From positions 4,588,001 to 4,652,000 of the forward strand of contig JAHQIY010000006.1 in the NCBI GenBank assembly GCA_019054805.1: 64,000 nucleotides of DNA. Reading direction: 5' to 3'. Position numbers and translations under genes: made by a program. The notes under the pieces are model-generated. The model ran no database searches. It worked only from the letters and a program-made list of their open reading frames with translations, and had not been told where the DNA came from. Shown in pieces: positions 25,179-60,928 of this stretch (within the stretch, counting starts at the first letter, position 1; each line of letters starts with the position of its first letter). The DNA comes from Brachionus manjavacas (Eukaryota; Rotifera; Eurotatoria; Ploima; Brachionidae).

Positions 25179-28100
25179 TTAAAAAAATTTGAACAATTGT
25201 GTCAAATTCACAATTCCGAACGAGTTGTTCTTCAATTTTTTATGTACATGTTCCTTCAATTGATTTAAAGCCTTTTCTAGCTCTTTATTATTTCTTATCA
25301 AATTAGTTACATCGATCAGATCATCTTTGAAGCAATTTTTATATGCCTCATAGTCGAAGATAAACTTAAAGAATTTCATTTGATAGTACAAATCAGAGTG
25401 AGAAAATTCCATACAAGTGGCATATCGTTCGCATTCTACACATTGAGGTCTTCCATGAAAGTATTTACAAGAAATTCTCTTAGTCCTGAAAGAACACATT
25501 GGATCTTCGCAGACCAGCCATCCTTGATAATACTGCCGTATAAATTTTCCCAATTGTAATGTTATTAAGTTTTTGATATAAGCTAATTTTGACAATGGTT
25601 TAAGAGTACATGCCGGATTTGCACATGACTCCAGAATACATTTTATTTTTGAATTAGACATTTTTTTTGTATCTGATATTATAATGGAAGTTCCCTCCAG
25701 CTCAATGTCATCGTCATCATCAGCCTCCATTTTAACATCAACAGGCTCCTGTTTTATATTATCATTTAATTTTACAAATGAACTAGTCCAGTTGGATTCG
25801 GTTTTACACTCGGGACATATAAACTTAAATGGCAAGCAATTCGAATACTTTTCTAGCTCGTTCATAAAGTTTTCTATTTTTTTCTGCTGCTTGGACAATT
25901 GCGGTATGGCAATTGTGGAGCCTGAGTTCGATGCTGAATTTTTGTGTCTAAATCCGTTGGGATCTAGACCTAGAGATTGAGCAATTTGATAAGCGTCAAT
26001 GCCTTCAATTGGCTCACATAAACGGGTCACTACCGGATGTACTTGTTGAGTCAAGTAGTATTTAGTGTCCAATTTTAAATTGTCTGAATTTCTAAACAAT
26101 TCACTTTTGGAATAAGATCGTTGAGTGGAAGAATTTTGGGTGCCATCCTCACAAACTATGTAAGAAACAACATCTCCAGATTTGTATTTTTTACTGTTGT
26201 TCGAGTCTTTGTTGTGCCTTAAAGCGACCAATACATGTGGTTGATGGTTGGCATCACTATAATCTTCTGGATTTCGATTTAATTGCTAAAGAAATTATCT
26301 TAATGAAAGAAAAATTTATTTTTAAATGTATAAAACCTTTGAAATCTCAAACAAACTCAGATCGTATGAATTGTTTTTGATTCTCTCACCCGTTTCGGTC
26401 AAAATTTTATTGATATTCGACAAGACTTGGTCGAACTGATTTCCTGATAGAATTTCGCCAATAACTTTTTCTCCAATTTGTTTTGCCAAAAGACACCAAT
26501 CTCTACGAACAACATCTAAGCCCTTAATTTCTTGTTGACATTGTAAGCTCATGTCTTTCGGATTTCGGCCAACAATTGTCAAAGCAGCGTATTTTTTTTT
26601 CCTCAATAAAAGTAAGCATTTATAAACACCATCAATATCAATTTCCAAGTGCCGATACATTTTATTTACTTCAGATTTTATCTTTAAAAAATTATTTTAA
26701 TTGATTGTCCAACTAAATATTTAAAATGTTTAATCTACCATGTTTCCTAGCTTGATTACTTGATCGTAGTCAGTCAAATTAGTATTTATCATTATTGAAT
26801 CTGTATCACCATAGATCACTTCGATTTTTTTCTAAATTTTTAAATTAATATTTCGATTCTTATATATTTTAATAAAAAAAATTACATTTTCTACAAGTTC
26901 TTTAGTTTTCATTAAGATGTTACGACCATTTTTAGTGATTAAAGCAGCTAAAGGTTTGCAATAGAATCTTGAGTTTTCAAAACCTAAACAACCATAAACA
27001 CTATTTGCAGTTAATTTCAATGCTTTTTGTCTTATATCGTACTAAAATAAAGGTTTTAGGAGTACAAAAATAAATTCTAGTACTTAATTATTTGTTTTTT
27101 CAGCTAAATAATACTCAAACGATAGATCTTGATCAGAATCGTTTGGAAGCTCTTCAAATAATTTTGTTTAAGAAAGTATCATTACGCTAGAAAACTGATT
27201 AGGATTAATTATTTTAATTCGCAGTATCTTATATATTTCCTATCTTGAAAGTATGTGGATGTTTTTTACTTAACTTAAAAGAAACTCGTCACCGCTTGTT
27301 TTTTATTTTTATTTTTTTAATAATATTAATATACACAAAAAAAAATTTAATTCATTTAATTTTTTTAAACCTTTCGACTTTCTCAAAATCATTCTTTTGA
27401 TAAAAATAAGTTATATATCATTTATAAAATAATTAATTTAATGTATGACTATTGAATAAACATATCAAAATTATCAAAATTTAGAAAAAATTGAGCATTT
27501 GAGTTTTCTTTTTGGATAAAAAAAAATTACAAAAACGAATACTATTTTCAAAATAAAAAGATAATTTCACTGAAAATATTTTGATTTTTGATAAATAATA
27601 AAAGCTAAAAAACAACGAATAGCAAAAATTTTAATTTAAGACAATCTAGATGAATTTTTAATCGAAAACAAATCATGAATTAGTATTGAATTATTATTCT
27701 AATTATATTAGGATCATTGTCTTCAATAATTTTTCAATTATTTTTTTCATCTCTTTAAATAAGACAATACCTTTACAAATAGTTAGATTTTATACATATT
27801 TTGATAGCGCAAATCCTTAAAATATTTAATTAAGCTCAAATTGTAATTAAAATGCTAAATTAAACCATATTGTTCAATTTTTCTAAAGTATGTTTCAAAA
27901 TAAGATCATAAATAAACAGATCAATTAAGATTGAAATTCTACATTCGTAGATGATGTTTACCTGCATTTTAAGGTCTGGGCTTAAATTTTTTTCCTGCAT
28001 CAACTGTTTTACTTGACGTCTTGAATCAACCAATTTGCGAATTTCCATGGGCAAAATACCTTGTTTTTCATCCAACCCAGGTACTTTGATAAAATTTTCC

Positions 28101-31100
28101 AAATATTCATCAATATCGGTTTCAGCTAACTCATTTGTTGGCCGACTAATAGTAGTGAAACAAATATTAAACTCTTGAATAATACTGGGATAAAGTGAGT
28201 TAAAATCAAGCAACAGAATAAATTTATCATAAAAACCAATTTTTGGGTCCAATACCAAGCCGCCTTGATAGCTATTCGAGTTAGTATTATGCGTATTTTT
28301 AGGCTCAACCTTTTCTAACTTAGCCAAAGTAAGGTTATTAGTTGACGATGGCATTTCTTCATCGTCTTCCAGAGCCATTCTAGAAAGCATTTCATCTTCC
28401 ATTTCCTCTTGTGTTTGATTCATACTCATCTCCCTCTTAACTACACTTTTGTTGGTCACAGATTTAGCAGGTTTTGCATTTTGCCTAGCACTTTTAGCAT
28501 AACCAGAGTACTTTTCAGGAAGAATAAAGTCTTTGTCATTAAAAGCATGCAAAAGTAGATACTCGTTGCGCTCCGAGCGACCGCCTGTCAGTGTCCTGGA
28601 CAGCACATTTCCAGCAATGCATGTTATTTGATAAGCCAATTGCAAACACTGCAAATCATTGAAAATATTGAGTATGTAGGTGGCATCCATCATTGCCAAT
28701 TGTAGAAACTTAATCAACAATTGAGAGTTAGCATAAAAGGCAGCGACGTTTTTTTCCTCTTCGTAGTCCCTTTCTAAAATACTACTTTTGTCCTTTTTGT
28801 ACAACACATGACTTACAAGTTCATTAAGGTCAAAACTTTTGCATTTGGAAAGCAATTCTTTGGCACTAATCATTATGTCACATAGCAACCTTCCGGAAAA
28901 AACTGTTTGTATTCGTTGTTGGATGGCCATATTGCTAGCTGTTGAGTTATGAGTGCCACGTTTGAAATGACCAGGCAAATTGGGCATTGTAGACCGCTTC
29001 AGACGACCTAGCCTGGACCAATGAGGCACTTTATTGACCATGCATCGATTTAAGATAATATCTAAATTTGTTCCGAACAAGTCATGACCGACAATGATAT
29101 CCACGTCTAAGGCTTGAATTTTGCACAGCAAAAACGCTAGCATGGCTCTCTCTGAACCACATTGTTCTATTCTAAATTTTTGCAGGTTCGACTTGACTAC
29201 ATTTTGAAAATCATAAGGAAATATGACATGTGATGGTTTGGTAACAGCACAAAAATATGAATCATAGATGGCAGTTTTTTGGGTTTTCATCGATGAAGGA
29301 ATTGTGGGCTTTTCTAGATAGAATTTTTGGCAAATTAAACCACAGGCTGAGACGATTTCGTGCTCGTGTGTTTTGTGATTAAGAGTGGTTCTTAAAACTA
29401 GAGTTAATATGGTCAAAGGTGGTGTTGGAGGAAGGGAAATATTGGGATTTTCTAAAGAGACATTTTCGTGATAGACAGAAATATTTCTGAAATTTTCAAT
29501 TATGTACTCTAGTTTGCACCAGCTTAGCATTGAGCCAGATCCACCTTCTGTATCTCGTCTTTTGGCATTCGATACCATCAACCAGCAGGGACCTTTTATT
29601 TTTAGATCGATGAGCAAATGTTCCAAATATGGAGTATTAGCACCGAAAATACAAGAAAAGTATTCGCCTTGAATATCGACAGGCAATTGGCGATTGCTGT
29701 GCTGATCTTGGAAATACTCTACTTGTAAGTACTCCGATTCATAGGGAATTTCTTCGTCCAATTTGGTGCACCCTCGTCTATCAAAAGCATAATTTTTTTT
29801 CACAACATTAATCCTATAGGAAGAAATACGGTTCTTTTCTAATAAAAGCTCTATTTCTTTGCGAACTTGGTCCATAGTCACCGCTTCAGAACCACTGGCT
29901 CTTTTGAATTTTCTGGGCAAGACATGAACACATTTGGGAATATTTTTCACAATGCAACAAACACTTACAAATGTCAAGCAATTGTCACTAGTCTGAGATT
30001 CATTCTGAGTTTTTGCAATTGGCATCTTACCAAACATGTACACAGTGCCAGAGTGACTGTAGACATCCTCGAAAGCATCGAGCCAATAGAATAGCATTCG
30101 ATTGCTGCTTGATTGATTTTTCATTAATGATTTGAGGTCAAAGTCATCAAAGGTATTTGATTCTTGTTTAATTGGTAAGTTCAAGTGGTGAGCAAGATTG
30201 GAATTGTTAGCCTCCAGTGATAACTGAGATAATCGTTCAGCATTTTGTTCTTCAACACTAATCTTTTCTTGTTTGATATTTAAATTATCTGCGGAAGTAA
30301 CCGATGAATCAAATTCAATGGGTTCAGACTTGACCGGAAGAAAATTTTCTTTGGTTTCTGTTTTACTAGGCTCATTAATTACTTTAACATCGCTATCACA
30401 TGAGTCCGTTTCCAATAGTTGCTGGACCAGATTGTCATCGAGTTCAATTTTTTTTGAACATCGCTTTTCTTCGTTTCTATTTGAAGTGCTAGGACTCAAT
30501 TTTCGTTTGAAAGCTGGACTGAGGCTTATACTGGTGTTTACAATGGAAGAAAATGGAATATTTGATCGGCTAGGTGTATGTGTAGCTTTCAGCTTGGGAG
30601 TTCTGGCACTTTTTTTACTCAATTCCTGCATTATTTCGTTAGCAAGATCGTCGTCGTTTTCCATCACGGATGCTTCGTTTTTTTTTTCCGGTTTTGATTT
30701 TGAGGATGCCGAAGCTCTAAAAAAAGCGTTTCTAATGTCATTTTTTGGATCAGGTTCATCTTCGGCTATATTTGATAATTTGTCTTTGGTTATATTTTTT
30801 CTTAAATGTTTTTTTGCTTTTTGGTCATGATCATCATTTCGGTGGCGATTTTTCGAACCTTTTTTTCCGGAATAATCGCCTTCGTAGTAATCGTCGTCGT
30901 ACTCTTCAACATAATCGTAAATCTCTTCTTCTTCTTCTTCATCGTCTTCAACCTTAAAATTGATCAGAATCAAAACTTAAAAGTCGATAGAGTTTTGTGT
31001 TTTTTTACTTTTTCGCCTTGACGAGCTTTTTTAAGTTTTTCTAAGGCACTTAATTTTTTGTCATTAAGTTTCTTATTTCGATTTCTGGGCGAGTCTTAAA

Positions 31101-49814: not shown

Positions 49815-50811
49815 ATGTTTTTAGATCTAAATATGGTCAAATCAGAAATTTATTATTTTATTAATTTGAAATTTAAAAAACAAAAATGAATGAAAACATC
49901 AATTACTTAAAAAAAAAAGAAAATAATTGTAAAAATAAAATATCCAAAACATGATGGATAAAGTAAAGATGAATTATTTTTCAGATTTAGAACATTTGAA
50001 AACGGAGCCATTGTTCCATTATTCGCATTACAATTTATCATCAACAATTGGCAAAGCAATGGATAAACGTCAACATTATTAAGGCTATTTATTTTCATAC
50101 TTTTTGAAATCAGGCCCTCTGGCCAAAAAATTGCTCTCATGGCTTCTATTTCACTGTCGAAACCATGATTTCCTTTTAATGTTTGCCTTCTAGTGCTCAT
50201 TACATAGCCCTCGTCAGCTATGGCAACAATAGGAGCTATTCTATTACTGTTTTGATAGTGAAGTTCTTTTGGGATATTTTCTTTGTAAAAAACTCTCAGA
50301 TTGGCAACTTTGGACAGCGCATCAAATATCACTGCTTTCTAGAATCAAATTAAAAGAATTAAAAGAATAAATACATGTCTTTTTTTTTGCTGTTTACATC
50401 TTGCTCATTATTTGGATAGATATTAGAGACTATGCCAAAAATAGATCTACTTGAATTTATCAACTTGCTATCAACATGATCGTACACAAATATTGTCTCA
50501 TTTTTCATGTCAGCCATTCCATGATCACTTACAATTAGAATGTTTATTTTATCAGCAATGTCCTCTTGCTCCATGAGTTCTATTAAATAGCCAATTATCC
50601 AATCCATGTCTCTTATCTTTTACAATTTAGAATGAATTATTGTAGAATTTGTTTTTTTTTAAAGGTATTGAAAATAATTTACAGCATCTCTGTATTCTTG
50701 CGAGTCAGCTCCATAAGAATGTCCAGTGTGGTCAGGCTCATTGAAATAAAGTGTCACAAAATCCATTTCAAATTTTGTTAACCAGCTGACAACCTCTTCA
50801 CATCTTTGTTT
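49815..50811 (-). repeat. Inverted duplication, arm 1 (pairs with 56626-57623)
   Basis: About 997 nt here are nearly identical to the reverse complement of 56626-57623. The match covers part of exon 2, exons 3 and 4, the introns and about 90 nt past the stop codon. The differences I saw are few and mostly in A or T runs. The match stops abruptly at both ends. Confidence 0.9.
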
Positions 50812-51363
50812 GAATAAAAACGCATTTGTATAACTTAAAAAATGATCTGGATTTCTTGTCCATACTTCTGAACCGGGCCAGAAAAAGGAAGAAGTTTTCA
50901 GACCCTTTTAAATAATTTCTTATTTTCTACTCAATTATTTTATTTAAAATACTTGGTTTTTTGCAGTTAACCAAATTGGGTCTGTTTTGTTCCACCATCT
51001 AGGTTTCAATGAATCTTCATCACTCAAAAATCTGACAATTCTGTCTCCCTCAGGATCATAGTATGAATTTCCGACAATGCCGTGATTTTCCATGTATAAA
51101 CCAGTGACAATTGTATAATGATTTGGAAAAGTCAATGTTGGAAATGCTGGCTGCATAAAATCAGCTTTGACACCAACATCAACAATTTTTTTTTTCAAAA
51201 AAGAATGTGGATTTTCTTCCATAAATTGGTCTAATGAAGTCGCCCTTAAGCCATCAAGTGATATTAAAAGAGTAGGTGTTCGCTTTTCTTTTAAGTCAAC
51301 CGGAGTGCTTTTTACTTTCTGAGAATAATTTAAAATGCAGATTAAAATAAAAATCAATTCCAT
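49907..51363 (-). CDS. ENPP: ENPP-type ectonucleotide phosphodiesterase, copy A
   Basis: Four exons, 50953-51363, 50683-50904, 50398-50616 and 49907-50338, all phase 0, encode 427 residues. A signal peptide (MELIFILICILNYSQKV) leads into a single alkaline-phosphatase-fold domain. Visible active-site parts are LLISLDG (Asp 37), TLTFPNHYT (nucleophilic Thr 78), NEPDHTGH, VSDHGM and GNHGFD, which supply the six metal ligands. The C-terminus is hydrophobic and may be a membrane or GPI anchor. Without somatomedin-like or nuclease-like domains it fits the short ENPP4-7 type, which cleave nucleotide or lipid phosphodiesters outside the cell. Odd: a one-base and a two-base deletion in homopolymers replace the conserved ARGP segment of the sister genes with WPEGL. 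This restores the frame but alters about eight residues. Confidence 0.9.
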
Positions 51364-52366
51364 TTTAAATTTTTTTAATAAAAGAAATATTTTATTTCTT
51401 AATTAAAAATTAAATTTTCAAATTTATAAATCGGTTTTCCATTCTTATTAGTGAATTCTTCGTGATCAACAATCTTTTATTTTCATTTTGATAAAAATTC
51501 TTACTTGATCTTTTCTCCGTCATTCGTCCTGAATAGTTAAATAGCATGCTCGATAAAAAATTTATAATAATATATTTATGATTTTTTTAAATAAAGATAA
51601 AACTAATTCTTAAAAATCTTATTGCTCAAAAGATTTTTAAAATCAAAGTCCTTAAATAGTTTTAATAACTTTAAATTTAGAATTGTTTGATCATAAAAAA
51701 AATCTTCCAACGATGTGCACTTTTTCCAATTTAAAATACACTCTTCTAAACTCCTTTATCGAATTTAAAAACTTTAAATTGTTAAAAACCTTGGAAAATT
51801 TTTTTATTTTTAATAATAAATATTGACTAATAATTCGACCATACAGACATTGTGCCTCAAATTTAAAAAAAGGATTTTAAACAAACTAATGTTACTTATT
51901 AACACTCAGTTCTCAGTTCGACTCTCAGTTCGAAGGTTGGATTTCTTTAAAAAGGGATAATCATTTTTTAGTCAGGTAGTAGTTCTTGGTTCGAAATTCC
52001 AGTAAGCAGAATATTTGAGACAATCCCTAATTTGTGGCAGTATGATGCTTTAGTTGCAAAGACTGGAGTAGACCAGATTTTTAAAAGTATCTACAACTTT
52101 TCAGAATACAAGTATGCTATTTTTAATAGTTTATTTTGATAAACTAAAATAACAATAAATGATTAAAATGAAGATATTAAGATAAATTGTAATCTAATAA
52201 AAACAACATTATTTACGTACCTGTTAATTTTGGTGGAACTAATTTTAATAACTTAAAGTTTATTTTTTTATAATTTTATTGATTTTAAAAATACATGAAA
52301 ACAAACTGGTAATTAATTAAATGAAAATTTAACAGCTTATTTATTAGAAAATTATTTAAAAAAAAT
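51364..52366. other. Intergenic between ENPP copies A and B
   Basis: AT-rich spacer. GGTTCGAAATTCC at 51988-52000 is an almost perfect RNA polymerase III B box, but no matching A box or cloverleaf is clear. It may be another tRNA-derived repeat fragment. Confidence 0.4.
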
Positions 52367-53748
52367 CTAAAAAGCCAAAAATTTAGAAGTAAGAGCGTTT
52401 TTAAATGGCAACAAGGAACCATTATTCGGATGACAATTAATTTTTACTAATTCGCATAATAGTGGATAAACGTCAACATTTTTTAAACCACTTATTTGGA
52501 CATTTGGTCTAAAACTCGGACCTCTTGCCATAAATATAGCTCTCATTGATTCCAAGTTATTATCGAAACCATGATTTCCTTTTAATGTTTGCCTTCTAGT
52601 ACTCATTACATAGCCCTCGTCAGCTATGGCAACAATAGGAGCTATTCTATTACTGTTTTGATAGTGAAGTTCTTTTGGGATATTTTCTTTGTAAAAAACT
52701 CTCAGATTGGCAACTTTGGACAGCGCATCAAATATCACTGCTTTCTAGAATCAAATTAAAAGAATTAAAAGAATAAATACATGTCTTTTTTTTGCTGTTT
52801 ACATCTTGCTCATTATTTGGATAGATATTAGAGACTATGCCAAAAATAGATCTACTTGAATTTATCAACTTGCTATCAACATGATCGTACACAAATATTG
52901 TCTCATTTTTCATGTCAGCCATTCCATGATCACTTACAATTAGAATGTTTATAATCTGATCTAAATTAGCTTTTTTAAGTTCGTCAATTAAATAACCAAT
53001 TGTTTCATCAAGTTTTTTAATCTAGCAAAGTAAAAATAGATATAAATTTTAATTATTGAAAAATTTTACAGCTTCATAATATTCCTCAGAATCAGGTCCG
53101 TAACCATGACCAGAGTGATCTGGTTCATCAAAGTATAAAGTTCCAAAATCTATATCAAATTTTTTAAACCAGCTAACAATTTGATCGCATCGAGATTTCC
53201 ATTCAATATTGCCGTCATATTTCAGGAAAAAATCTGGATGTCTTTGCCAGACTTCAGAGCCGGCCCAAAAAAATGAAGCTGTTTTTAGACCCTTTTTGAA
53301 AATTTCAAAAAAATCATGTTTTAATTTTTTTAAAATCAACTTGATTTTTTGCGCTTAGCCAAATTGGTTCCGTTTCATTCCACCACTTAATGTTAGTCTT
53401 TTCCAGATAGTTTCCTCCTATATAGTTGAGCTTCTGGTCGTAAACACTATCATAAACTGTGTTTGCAGTAACACCATGGTTCTCCATAAATAGTCCAGTA
53501 ACCAATGTAAAATGGTTTGGAAAAGTTAGTGTTGGGAATGAGGGCTGCATATGATCAGCTTTGATACCAATATTAACAAATTCTCTCTTAAAATAGGAGT
53601 CCGGATTTTCTTTTAAAAATTTATCCAATTTGTCTGAACGGAAACCGTCCAAAGAAATCATTAGAAGAGGATTTTGCTTGGACTTTTTTAAAGGAATCAA
53701 GCTAATTTCGTTTATTAAAATCAACAAAAATATTAAAAAATATTTCAT
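52367..53748 (-). CDS. ENPP: ENPP-type ectonucleotide phosphodiesterase, copy B
   Basis: Four exons, 53341-53748, 53070-53291, 52803-53021 and 52367-52744, all phase 0, encode 408 residues with the same intron positions as copy A. A signal peptide (MKYFLIFLLILINEISL) precedes the catalytic domain. Metal-site motifs are complete: LLMISLDG, TLTFPNHFT, DEPDHSGHGYG, VSDHGM and GNHGFD, and the conserved MARGPSF segment is intact. It ends at SKFLAF without the long hydrophobic tail of copies A and C, so it is probably a soluble secreted enzyme. A stretch of about 390 nt across exons 3 and 4 and their intron is nearly identical to copy A, while the rest is clearly diverged, which points to gene conversion. 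Confidence 0.9.
52562..52952 (-). repeat. Gene-conversion tract shared with ENPP copy A (50156-50552)
   Basis: From the codons for GNHGF back to those for NILIVSDHG, copies A and B are almost identical, including the 58-59 nt intron. I saw two differences: one synonymous base and one T in an intron run. On both sides identity drops sharply to ordinary paralogue level. Confidence 0.88.
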
Positions 53749-54058
53749 TTTGGTTTATTTTTCAAAAAAGTTTGTTTTTCAATTTATATTTTTATCATTT
53801 AATAACTAAATTATCAGCTTCAAGCATGATCAAAATTTAATTATCTAAATTATTTTTGAATAAAAAAATTGACTTTAGTGTGAATTTTATTGCATCTAAA
53901 CTACACGTGAACGACACTAATTTTGATTAAATAAGATGCTCTTTTATTTGTTTAATTATTTAATCAAATTGTTTTTTTTTAATTATTCTGTAATTAAAAA
54001 GTTAAAATTTTTGATCAATAAAAAAAATGTACATTATCACTACACATGATTTAAATAT

Positions 54059-55570
54059 TTACTCTTGAGTCTTTTCCGAACTTTTAATCTGATTATTGTT
54101 ATACAAATTGGTAAGTTCAGCGATCCATTCGCTCAAATTTGAAACTTTTTTGTTTATCTGAAAAAAAAAGTCATTTAAAATAAATTTAAAAGTGCATTTT
54201 ATACTTTAAATTTTTTTATATCTGCTTCATCATATCCACTTAGTGAAATTAATTTTATTAAAGACTGGTCACATAGCGGATAATGCTTTGGCAAAAGAAT
54301 AGTTGCCATTTTGGATGACTTTGAATTAATTAAAATAGTCAAAACATGGGAGCCTTCAATCCAATCTATGGCAAATCTTAATTTTTTTATTTTTTAGCCC
54401 AATTATTTTTAATTAAAAGAAAATTACTGTTTTTTAGCATCCTCAATTTCTTGCTTGCTCATCATAAAACATAAAAGTTGCAAATAGCAATTAGCCACAA
54501 TTTGAAAATCTTCCAATTCATTCAAAACTAAACAACCTTTGAAAACATTACCGTTCATTTTTCTTCTTTTCTTTTTGAAAATTTTTGAATTAATTATTAA
54601 ATAAAAAAGAAAAAAAATATTACTTTAAAAATTGAACGGTATTTGTCCAAAAGCTCTTGAGATAAATGTGACTTTTTGGTTTTGGATGTTAACGGATTAT
54701 TTTCCGAATAAATCTCAAGGTCAAGAACATCGTCGATTAGGTTTATAAAAGCAATATTGAACCATTGCGATCCAAAATCATAAGGCATCTCAAGGACCTT
54801 AATTCCAAGCATAAGCTCAAATATACGATATTTTAACAAAAAGTAATCTTCATTATTTTCAGAAATTTTGGAATATTTTTCCAAGCAATTAACTAAAATT
54901 GATTCAGCTCGTTTAATTTGGTCAATAATTTTGTGATCGTTTTTTATTATATTTAATTGAAACTCGTGAGTTTGATGTTTTAATAGTTGGCTCCTTGATT
55001 CCACTATAGATTGATTTATATTTTTTTTCTTGGAAAAAAAGAGGCTATTTAAATTGTTAATCTCATAGTTTATTAAAAACCTTTTCCAATGTTTCTTTTA
55101 AATTCTCAAGTTCTTTGGCAATTTTTGCATTTTCTTCGATAAGATTTTCAAAATAAACTTGATATTTATCCGTAATAATATTTGATTCTCTATAAATTTT
55201 TTCATCATCTTTTAAATATAAAAAATATCATTCCTTAGAAAATTTTTATTCAAGTTATTACATTTTTCATTTAGATGAAATGCTTCGTCTATGTCTCTTT
55301 TCAATAGAACCATTTGGTTAAATGATTCGTTTAACTCTGAATTATAAAAAAATAGAAATTTGAATTTAAGATTTTTATTTTGAAAATAAACCTTCAAGGA
55401 TTTGATGGAATTGCTCGGTTTTATCCTGATCATTTATGGATGAAAACAAATTTATGTCTTTTTTAGTTTGTAGAATTTCAGCCTTTAAAAGATCTAATTT
55501 ATTTTAAGAAATGGCTATAAAAGCTTCCACTTACGCTAAAGGAATTGAGTTGACGATAAAATAAGTCCAT
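54059..55570 (-). CDS. Coiled-coil protein with compact C-terminal region, 382 aa (unknown)
   Basis: Eight exons, 55535-55570, 55392-55482, 55262-55336, 55081-55208, 54624-55028, 54428-54570, 54205-54376 and 54059-54157, keep phase at all seven junctions. The N-terminal half (residues about 10-180) is charged, helical and coiled-coil like (ENAKIAKELENLKETLEK). The C-terminal half has fewer charges and looks globular, with segments such as MPYDFGSQWFNIAFINLI, FAIDWIEGSHVLTILI and KHYPLCDQSLIKLISLSGYD. A coiled coil followed by a small globular domain is common in kinetochore, centrosome and ciliary subunits, but I cannot place it in a family. It has no signal peptide, unlike the ENPP genes on both sides, and is probably unrelated to them. 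Confidence 0.75.
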
Positions 55571-56075
55571 TTTTTGGTTTTAGAAAAAATGGAAAAAAAC
55601 AAAAAATTTGTCAAAAGCTAAAAATTAATAAATCATTTAGAAATGATAGTAGAATTTTTTTCAAAATTTTGAATTTATTTTAAAAAGTCATTTTTAAACA
55701 AAAATTTCGTTTTTAAAAATTTGAATAATATATTTTAAATTTAAAAGACTCGATTATTTTTCAAATACAAATGTGGTAAAATCTGTCTTTTTTTTAAATT
55801 CAATATCAACTTTAAAAAAAAATCATAGCCTCTTAATTTTTTTTATAATAATAAAATATTAATTGGAAAATCATAATCAGTTAGATTTTATCTTTTAATA
55901 AATAATTTGTATGGTTAAAAGTGTTGTTATTTACTCTTAGATTGACATTTTTAAAAATCTCTAAATTAGTTATTACCTTTAAAATTGAGATAAAAATTAA
56001 TTTAAGAAAAGTTTTCAATTTAAAATTACTTATCATACGATTAAATTTGTATAAACTCAAAAATAACTAAAAATA
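55571..56075. other. Divergent promoter region
   Basis: AT-rich region between the start codons of the coiled-coil gene (minus) and ENPP copy C (plus). No specific element recognised. Confidence 0.4.
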
Positions 56076-57531
56076 ATGAATTTTCCATTAATTTATTTAA
56101 TTTTACTGATTTGTTTTGTGAGTTATGTACTTAATGGACCAACAGATTCTTTAAAGAGAACACCAACTTTACTTATATCTCTCGATGGCTTAAGAGCATC
56201 TTCATTAGACCAATTTTTGGAAGAAAATCCACATTCTTTTTTACAAAAACAATTTGTCGATGTAGGGATAAAATCGAAATATATGAAGCCTTCATTTACT
56301 ACGTTAACTTTTCCGAATCATTACACAATAGTAACAGGATTAAATATAGAAAGCCATGGAATCATTGGCAATTCACTTTACGACCCAGACATGGACGAAA
56401 AAGTAAATTTCCTAGGAGGAAATAATTCTTTGGACACCAACTGGTGGAACAATGCAGAACCAATTTGGTTAACTGCAAAAAACCAAGTATTTTAATTAAA
56501 AGTATTAATTAATATTTAATGATTTAATTAAGGGACTAAAAACTGCATCATTTTTTTGGCCTGGATCTCAAGTTTGGTCGAGACATCCAGATTTTTTTCT
56601 AACATATACTGAATCATATTCTTTTAAACAAAGATGTGAAGAGGTTGTCAGCTGGTTAACAAAATTTGAAATGGATTTTGTGACACTTTATTTCAATGAG
56701 CCTGACCACACTGGACATTCTTATGGAGCTGACTCGCAAGAATACAGAGATGCTGTAAATTATTTTCAATACCTATAAAAAAACAAATTCTACAATAATT
56801 CATTCTAAATTGTAAAAGATAAGAGACATGGATTGGATAATTGGCTATTTAATAGAACTCATGGAGCAAGAGGACATTGCTGATAAAATAAACATTCTAA
56901 TTGTAAGTGATCATGGAATGGCTGACATGAAAAATGAGACAATATTTGTGTACGATCATGTTGATAGCAAGTTGATAAATTCAAGTAGATCTATTTTTGG
57001 CATAGTCTCTAATATCTATCCAAATAATGAGCAAGATGTAAACAGCAAAAAAAAAGACATGTATTTATTCTTTTAATTCTTTTAATTTGATTCTAGAAAG
57101 CAGTGATATTTGATGCGCTGTCCAAAGTTGCCAATCTGAGAGTTTTTTACAAAGAAAATATCCCAAAAGAACTTCACTATCAAAACAGTAATAGAATAGC
57201 TCCTATTGTTGCCATAGCTGACGAGGGCTATGTAATGAGCACTAGAAGGCAAACATTAAAAGGAAATCATGGTTTCGACAGTGAAATAGAAGCCATGAGA
57301 GCAATTTTTTTGGCCAGAGGGCCTGATTTCAAAAAAAGTATGAAAATAAATAGCCTTAATAATGTTGACGTTTATCCATTGCTTTGCCAATTGTTGATGA
57401 TAAATTGTAATGCGAATAATGGAACAATGGCTCCGTTTTCAAATGTTCTAAATCTGAAAAATAATTCATCTTTACTTTATCCATCATGTTTTGGATATTT
57501 TATTTTTACAATTATTTTCTTTTTTTTTTAA
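56076..57531 (+). CDS. ENPP: ENPP-type ectonucleotide phosphodiesterase, copy C
   Basis: Four exons, 56076-56486, 56533-56754, 56819-57037 and 57097-57531, all phase 0, encode 428 residues. A signal peptide (MNFPLIYLILLICFVSYVL) and the full set of catalytic motifs are present: LLISLDG, TLTFPNHYT, NEPDHTGH, VSDHGM and GNHGFD. The LARGPDF segment is intact, unlike in copy A. The C-terminus is hydrophobic, a possible membrane or GPI anchor. From mid exon 2 to 90 nt past the stop it is nearly identical to copy A in opposite orientation. Exon 1 is only moderately similar, so the gene is a mosaic of an older paralogue and a recently shared 3' part. Confidence 0.92.
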
Positions 57532-57623
57532 GTAATTGATGTTTTCATTCATTTTTGTTTTTTAAATTTCAAATTAATAAAATAATAAATTTCTGATTTG
57601 ACCATATTTAGATCTAAAAACAT
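56626..57623 (+). repeat. Inverted duplication, arm 2 (pairs with 49815-50811)
   Basis: This is the mirror copy of the segment in ENPP copy A, about 998 nt. The arms are 5.8 kb apart in opposite orientation and enclose ENPP copy B and the coiled-coil gene. Confidence 0.9.
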
Positions 57624-59263: not shown

Positions 59264-60928
59264 ATGAATAGCTTGATGAAAATTTTATTTTTGTTAGCAA
59301 TAAATGCATGTGTACTCAATGCAAAATCAAGTCCACTTCTTTTGATATCTATGGATGGATTCCAAGCGGCAAAATTGCATCAATTTATGAATGAAAACCC
59401 TAGTTCAAATTTTACTCAATTTTACAATAAAAGTCTTGGAGCAGATTATATGAATCCGTCAGAACCTTCTATAACTTTTCCTAATCATATAACTTTAGTA
59501 ACTGGTAAGTAAAAGAAATACCTTTAAATAAATTTTTCATTATTAATAATTTAGGTCTTTATCCTGAATCCCATGGTAAGCTAATTAAAGTAATGCTTGC
59601 CTAATATTCATTTAGAAATTCAAAGGTATTATCAATAACATTATCTATGATCCTAATTATGACCAAAAAGTAAAGCTAGCCCAATCGCAGGATCTTAAGT
59701 GGTGGAATCTGTCAGAACCAATTTGGTATACAGCTAAAAAACAAGTTTAACACTTTAAAATAGATTTACAGAAATTTGAATTGACTTTTCATAAAGGGTT
59801 TAAAAACGGGATCTTCTTTTTGGATATCTAACAATGTTTGGCCGAGGCAGCCAGGTAAAATTATCAAAATTAAAACATGTGTTTATTTAGAAAATTATTT
59901 CTTTTAAGATGTCTTTCTCAGTTATAATCCAAATTACGACTCATTTGATCGAGTAGATGAAATTATTAACTGGTATAGGAAATTTGATTTGGACTTTTTA
60001 TGTGTGTATTTTGATGAGCCCGATTCCACGGGTCATAGGTATGGACCTGATAGTAAAGAATACATGGAAAAAGTAAATTTAAAATAAAAATTATCAAATT
60101 TATCTATTTCAATTAGATTGGCTATATGGATTCTGTATTGGGATATTTATTGAAAAGACTAGATGAAATCGGTCTTTTTCAACGACTAAATATAATTCTG
60201 GTCAGCGATCACGGAATGGCAAACTTAGCCTCAAATTACAATGTTTTTATTAAAGACCATGTAAATACAGATTTAATTGATATGGATAAAAGTGTATTTC
60301 ATGTTGTTTCTAACATTTTTCCAAAATCCGATGATAAAGTAAACCCATTATAAATGTGTATTTAGTAATTGTTGATAATTTTTCTAAAGCTAAATGAACT
60401 GTATGAACAAATGAAAAAATTGCCTAATATGAAAGTTTATAAAAAATCAGAAGTGCCCAAAGAGCTGAACTATTCTACAAGTGATCGAATCGGTATTTTC
60501 GGGTTTTATTAATAAAGTCAAAATTAAGCCTTTGATTTTAGGTGACATTGTATCATTTTCTAATGAGGGATATAGATTAATGGATCAGATTTATACCGAC
60601 AATAATCGAGGTGCACATGGATATGCATCTAATTTGACTTCAATGAGAGCAATTTTTATGGGTACTTTTTTTTCTTAATCTTAAAAAAAATAAATTAAAA
60701 ATTTTAAAAGCTCATGGTCCCAATATTAAACAAGGACGCATTGAAGGTTTCAGAAATGTAAATGTTTACCCATTAATGTGTACACTGATGAATATAAATT
60801 GCAATTCAAACAATGGAAGCATTGACATTTTTGAGCCCTTCATTGAAATGAATAACACAAATAATAAAAAAGAAAGCAAACTCTATGTTATTTTGGCTTT
60901 TTTGATGGCAAAATTAAAAATGTCATAA
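59264..60928 (+). CDS. ENPP: ENPP-type ectonucleotide phosphodiesterase, copy D (divergent)
   Basis: Nine exons, 59264-59504, 59555-59575, 59626-59744, 59797-59854, 59909-60072, 60117-60338, 60390-60492, 60542-60661 and 60711-60928, encode 421 residues. A signal peptide (MNSLMKILFLLAINACVLNA) is followed by LLLISMDG, SITFPNHIT, LYPESHG, DEPDSTGHRYG, VSDHGM and GAHGY, so all expected metal ligands and the threonine nucleophile are kept. The conserved MAHGP segment is split by an intron. It ends in a short hydrophobic tail (LYVILAFLMAKL). It shares intron positions with copies A-C but has five more introns, including one pair flanking a 21-nt exon. No recently shared tract with the other copies was seen, so it is the oldest lineage of the cluster. 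Confidence 0.9.

Follow-up and report, generated by a model that had tools for sequence, protein, structure and literature searches.

Nested near-identical tracts in three ENPP genes of Brachionus manjavacas, very probably the work of repeated interlocus gene conversion

How did two genes with clearly diverged front parts come to have back parts that are almost exact reverse complements of each other? The question is raised by a cluster of ENPP genes in the rotifer Brachionus manjavacas, which lies in a window of 64,000 nucleotides (nt), the whole stretch of DNA that was analyzed (C6:4588001-4652000, contig JAHQIY010000006.1, within the 114.17-Mb assembly GCA_019054805.1 of 61 contigs; window G+C 27%, N absent). 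Based on the comparison of three of its gene copies, named A, B, and C, the pattern is very probably the result of repeated interlocus (ectopic) gene conversion among old ENPP paralogues, including nested tracts in direct and in inverted orientation. The genes and tracts concerned are given below in window positions. The four-exon models of A, B, and C are predictions, with GT/AG splice sites picked by eye; lengths are in amino acids (aa), and the bit scores for PF01663 compare with a cut-off of 23.

49907..51363, minus strand: ENPP copy A; exons 51363-50953, 50904-50683, 50616-50398, 50338-49907; 427 aa; PF01663, E 2.7e-79, 267.7 bits
52367..53748, minus strand: ENPP copy B; exons 53748-53341, 53291-53070, 53021-52803, 52744-52367; 408 aa; PF01663, E 1.8e-76, 258.4 bits
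56076..57531, plus strand: ENPP copy C; exons 56076-56486, 56533-56754, 56819-57037, 57097-57531; 428 aa; PF01663, E 1.3e-78, 265.5 bits
49815..50811, minus strand: arm A, in ENPP copy A, with the end of exon 2, introns 2 and 3, exons 3 and 4, and a 92-nt 3' flank
56626..57623, plus strand: arm C, the inverted partner tract in ENPP copy C, from the alignment to arm A
52563..52952, minus strand: near-identical tract in copy B relative to A and C, 390 nt, containing intron 3
50812..51363, minus strand: diverged inner flank of copy A, with exon 1, intron 1, and the first part of exon 2; old paralogue of C 56076-56625
56076..56625, plus strand: diverged inner flank of copy C, with a synonymous divergence (dS) of 1.85 and a nonsynonymous divergence (dN) of 0.23 relative to A

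Alignment of the two arms showed that 49815-50811 is the reverse complement of 56626-57623 apart from three small indels and one mismatch, which bears out, coordinates included, the near-exact reverse complements reported in an earlier note on this DNA. One indel (2 nt) was located in intron 2, where the sequence is a run rich in A/T (A 50659-50663), with the mismatch, an A/T, three columns off. The other two were located in exon 4, namely 1 nt in a coding-strand T-run (beside A 50130 / C 57306) and 2 nt in a coding-strand A-run (beside A 50106 / C 57331-57332). Of the nucleotides of arm C, 783 are coding, 123 lie in introns, and 92 in the 3' flank, and no aligned coding substitution was found between the arms; the 13 coding differences counted in 258 codons (formal dN 0.013, dS 0.034) are attributed to the stretch of codons that the two exon-4 indels enclose. 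The 92-nt flank and introns 2 and 3 match as closely as the exons and are part of the arms, as the same note had claimed. Purifying selection on the protein was rejected as the source of the identity, because introns, silent sites, and 3' flank are equally alike.

On the inside of the arms, A and C were compared over exon 1 and the 93 nt with which exon 2 begins (NG86, 164 codons), and the dN and dS of the inner flanks listed above were obtained. Exon 1 had been described as clearly diverged, and it is; the divergence extends into the start of exon 2. Upstream of the tract the dN/dS of A and C is about 0.12 and both frames are open, as would be expected for long-kept genes. The earlier note had stated that its reading would fail if synonymous sites were as diverged in the arms as they are in exon 1. 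This was not observed: the arms have 0 aligned coding substitutions, as opposed to a dS of 1.85 upstream. Homology of the flanks was assessed by scoring 400-nt flanks against 200 shuffles. The inner flanks of A and C scored 334, with a shuffle maximum of 38 and none of the 200 shuffles as high.

The most telling feature, absent from the earlier note, is the tract in copy B. Within it, B was found to differ from both A and C by one substitution (52601) and one 1-nt intron indel (next to 52794), whereas the neighboring 50-column windows outside it are mostly 0.4-0.85 identical to A. The tract is nested wholly within the A–C tract, and B is direct relative to A. Two ENPP genes had been thought to be involved; this holds for A and C, but copy B has part of the tract, so three genes take part. 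Between A and B, 3 differences were counted in the 112 codons of the tract, edge codons included, and the dS outside it was 1.77 before and 1.19 after; for B and C, the dS after the tract was 1.48, and the value before it was not computable. The tract excepted, copy B thus appears, from its coding divergence, to be as distant from A as an older paralogue.

The lengths of identical runs were compared with those in 20,000 shuffles. With gapped columns excluded, the longest pairwise runs were 844 columns for A–C, 351 for A–B, and 351 for B–C, and the corresponding shuffle maxima were 156, 51, and 51. A three-gene test was performed on 435 gap-free variable columns (alignment columns 234-1720, a range chosen by the authors); the longest run with A=C was 217, compared with at most 40 in 20,000 shuffles.

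As shown by the three-way alignment, sharp edges lie within exons at the A–C inner edge and at both edges of the B tract. Interlocus gene conversion is marked by just such a combination: sharp exon-internal edges, silent sites and introns included, and two tracts, one nested in the other, spread over three genes. The starting point would have been a small cluster of old paralogues of the ENPP4/5-like type, with A and B on the minus strand and with C and a further copy, D, on the plus strand, in which at least two conversion transfers would be visible. One transfer, of about 390 nt that begin in exon 3, cover intron 3, and stop midway through exon 4, would have taken place between B and A or C; another, of about 1 kb that start in the latter part of exon 2 and reach 92 nt beyond the stop codon, would have homogenized A and C. 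The divergent orientation of A and C makes inverted repeats of the homogenized parts. We infer that the B transfer was probably older than, or as old as, the last A–C transfer, because at two places B departs from both A and C, which agree there.

Several observations weigh against this account. The outer ends of the A–C tract (49814/57624) sit in sequence without detectable homology, which speaks against a simple two-ended conversion, unless older homology has decayed. In the flank test, the similarity of the 400-nt outer flanks of A and C was not above that of shuffles (134 of 200 scored as high); the 400 nt upstream of their ATGs likewise had no visible homology (106 of 200), and the 3' flanks of B and C were borderline (3 of 200). 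The outer end of the A–C tract may be explained either by decayed older homology or by repair that was finished by end-joining. The data are the assembly consensus of a single genome, in which small real differences between the arms could be lost. Moreover, the runs of variable sites are weak for A–B (5, reached by 93 of 20,000 shuffles) and for B–C (6, reached by 8 of 20,000), presumably because the tract common to all three genes has no variable columns. Of the "ongoing conversion" proposed earlier, recent and repeated conversion fits the data, whereas "ongoing" goes beyond the reach of one genome.

The abrupt outer arm ends, non-homologous beyond, also resemble a duplication breakpoint, and could point to an inverted duplication of recent date, at least about 1 kb long, after which the front of one copy was replaced by, or fused to, another ENPP gene. 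Pairs of such appearance do exist in this genome, such as an ENPP tandem on C4 and a 4.17-kb inverted pair at the left edge of the window. A pair search (90% identity, at least 150 nt) was performed in a contiguous 262 kb, made up of twenty 10-kb stretches and the window (2 kb overlap). Four pairs of at least 400 nt at 97% identity or more were obtained. One is formed by the ENPP arms, which were part of a 1,485-nt match at 91%; a second, in tandem, is 682 nt long and 99.6% identical, and a third, in direct orientation, has 846 nt at 97.2%. The fourth is the inverted pair of about 4.17 kb, whose arms are separated by 7.45 kb and match at 99.5% over 3,771 nt and at 98.5% over 402 nt. Near-identical neighbors are therefore not rare here, in the one region sampled. 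The 4.17-kb pair looks like a young inverted duplication, since clear homology is absent from its flanks: the score of the inner flanks was reached by 75 of 200 shuffles, and that of the outer ones by 6 of 200, a borderline result. The ENPP pair is unlike it, with inner flanks that no shuffle equaled. A duplication would leave non-homologous sequence on both sides of each arm; here the outer flanks look non-homologous but the inner ones are homologous, in frame, and old (dS 1.85). An arm must then have replaced the homologous portion of an existing gene and nothing more, a process that amounts to conversion, and the B tract would be left unexplained. Such a duplication is thus considered improbable. 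A recent whole-gene duplication was rejected because of the old inner flanks and the contrast with the truly young-looking inverted pair. The "very recent duplication" of the earlier note was accordingly not retained, given that the inner flanks are old homologous gene parts and the B tract requires a further transfer.

The differences between the arms sit in or beside homopolymers, as they might if one arm had been built or polished from the reads of the other, and polishing could have erased small real differences. However, within a 6.7-Mb contig each arm is flanked by sequence of its own that is continuous with the gene, the inner joins lie inside exons and in frame in both genes, and the B tract has edges of its own. 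Polishing would hardly be expected to turn about 30% differing coding sites into identity, and some long frames nearby are intact through many homopolymers (for example, 3,114 nt with 13 runs of 6 or more). These frames speak for a fair base quality in single-copy sequence and leave it undecided for repeats. An assembly artefact is, on balance, very unlikely.

The question of base quality also concerns copy A itself. Its two exon-4 indels compensate each other (net loss of 3 nt; window 50095-50140) and alter a conserved stretch, in which IFLARGPDFKK of C becomes IFWPEGLISK in A. Nine sequences were lined up by hand (A, B, C, L005, L006, L008, L009, L010, and ENPP5 5vem; copy D, L020, and L004 were left out), and G[PA].[FI] was found in 8/9 where A has GLIS. 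Copy A thus differs from ENPP5 (5vem) and the other lined-up sequences, with FWPEGLIS in place of F...G[PA].[FI]. The frame of L004, one of the two genes of the C4 tandem, breaks at the same T-run motif that is altered in copy A. The stretch in copy A represents either an altered enzyme or a consensus error. As a separate observation, the two genes of this tandem (L004/L005; C4:5819127, C4:5827627) share 99.6% identity along 2.95 kb and are set apart by 4 substitutions and by 6 indels in homopolymers.

Arms of about 1 kb, near-identical and inverted, with 5.8 kb between them, have a geometry that permits inversion. The following region lies between B and C and would be inverted together with copy B if the arms were flipped:

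54062..55433, minus strand: gene region with open stretches, the putative coiled-coil gene of the earlier note

No Pfam match was found in the 3 open stretches scanned of the 6 listed for this region. Inversion of the 5.8-kb block by crossing over between the arms is possible. Regular recombination of the arms as an invertible switch, by which the block would be flipped and gene ends or regulatory flanks exchanged, is extremely doubtful; it is compatible with gene conversion, so its odds are not exclusive of it. The assembly shows a single orientation; in a genome-wide DNA search with arm A, which scores only the best candidates, A, C, and B alone were among the matches listed, and a flipped second haplotype was not found. 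No recombinase-like Pfam family was detected in the 17 proteins or stretches scanned, which represent part of the window. The 3' exons differ only by the two compensating indels, so a flip would hardly change the proteins. The identity of the arms is explained by conversion alone, and a flip was not adopted as its explanation, the search with arm A having listed A, C, and B only. Hairpin or antisense RNA from the arms was also considered as a hypothetical product; A and C are divergently transcribed.

The genes of the cluster are ENPP4/5-like as judged from PF01663 and their solved relatives, and their enzymatic activity is predicted. The best solved relatives of copy C were ENPP5 (5vem, E 2.4e-71), followed by ENPP4 (4lqy, E 2.4e-69). 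The catalytic motifs TFPNH, SDHGM, and GNHGFD were seen in the translations; a hydrophobic C-terminal tail is present in A and C and missing from B. The fourth gene was located as follows:

59336..60500, plus strand: ENPP copy D, diverged; PF01663 stretches in C6:4647336-4648500

No near-identical tract was found in copy D, whose DNA matches to B and C are about 70-72%. Genome-wide, at least 21 PF01663 stretches were counted per exon, of which 12 are on C6, all in the cluster, and 9 on C4, C9, and C17. The copies on C4, C9, and C17, as well as copy D, are too diverged from A, B, and C in DNA to show a donor.

The tract common to A, B, and C spans from just before SDHGM to GNHGFD, a region that holds the C-terminal metal-site motifs. 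It is conceivable, though unlikely, that conversion is targeted to this region or is selectively favored in it, as a domain-wise concerted evolution. If so, several enzymes would share one catalytic core, with N-terminal halves that diversify.

Comparable systems are known. In Caenorhabditis, divergent and convergent inverted paralogue pairs have nearly perfect inverted arms, for which gene conversion is one of the mechanisms offered (Zhao et al. 2007, PMC1803023). Like the ENPP A–C pair, CBG13231/CBG13232 of C. briggsae has a partial tract, being 100% identical over the first 297 nt and 59.6% overall (PMC1803023). The Caenorhabditis arms differ in that they take in the intergenic region, with a short spacer (e.g., 126 bp), whereas the ENPP identity covers the outer 3' parts, which lie 5.8 kb apart with other genes in the interval; that study compared three species, and the present case is one genome (PMC1803023). 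The palindromic Hsp70 and Amy pairs of Drosophila are, like A and C, linked inverted paralogues, and ectopic gene conversion keeps them alike; the alternative outcome discussed there is crossing over, which is deleterious and can produce inversions (PMC3924832). Their concerted evolution rests on species comparison and shared polymorphisms, as against one genome and a gene homogenized only in part for ENPP (PMC3924832).

For C. elegans, conversion tracts of 12-2,958 bp, with a mean of 117, were reported among 7,829 pairs, with introns in 15% of the detected events, both orientations represented, and a frequency that drops with distance on one chromosome (PMC3966223). The 390- and 997-nt ENPP tracts fall within this range and above its mean. 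The same paper cites the suggestion that same-orientation pairs convert more often, from which the ENPP genes differ in that their longer tract lies between inverted copies; it also reports a human study without a proximity effect on conversion (PMC3966223). A literature search combining ENPP, gene conversion, and tandem found no paper.

Gene conversion is a well-known process, to which this locus adds a clear case in which three paralogues, lying in both orientations, carry nested tracts. Trees, dates, or primers taken from the 3' parts of these ENPP genes would be misleading. Should recombination between the arms occur as well, the locus could be used to measure the inversion rate in this organism.

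Further observations were made on the 4.17-kb pair and elsewhere in the window. The right arm of the pair runs from just left of the window to 4019, and its partner lies at C6:4576233-4580400 (L043/L044). The pair holds an uncharacterized gene with open stretches of 682 and 390 aa, for which no Pfam match was obtained, and a 1.9-kb part of it matched two near-identical places in the genome plus two short weak ones. Inside the 682-aa open stretch, a repeat at 1131-1531 consists of 179-nt units that are 97% alike and start 222 nt apart. A DNA polymerase alpha-like gene (PF00136, PF03104, and PF08996) was found on the minus strand at 25182-30976.

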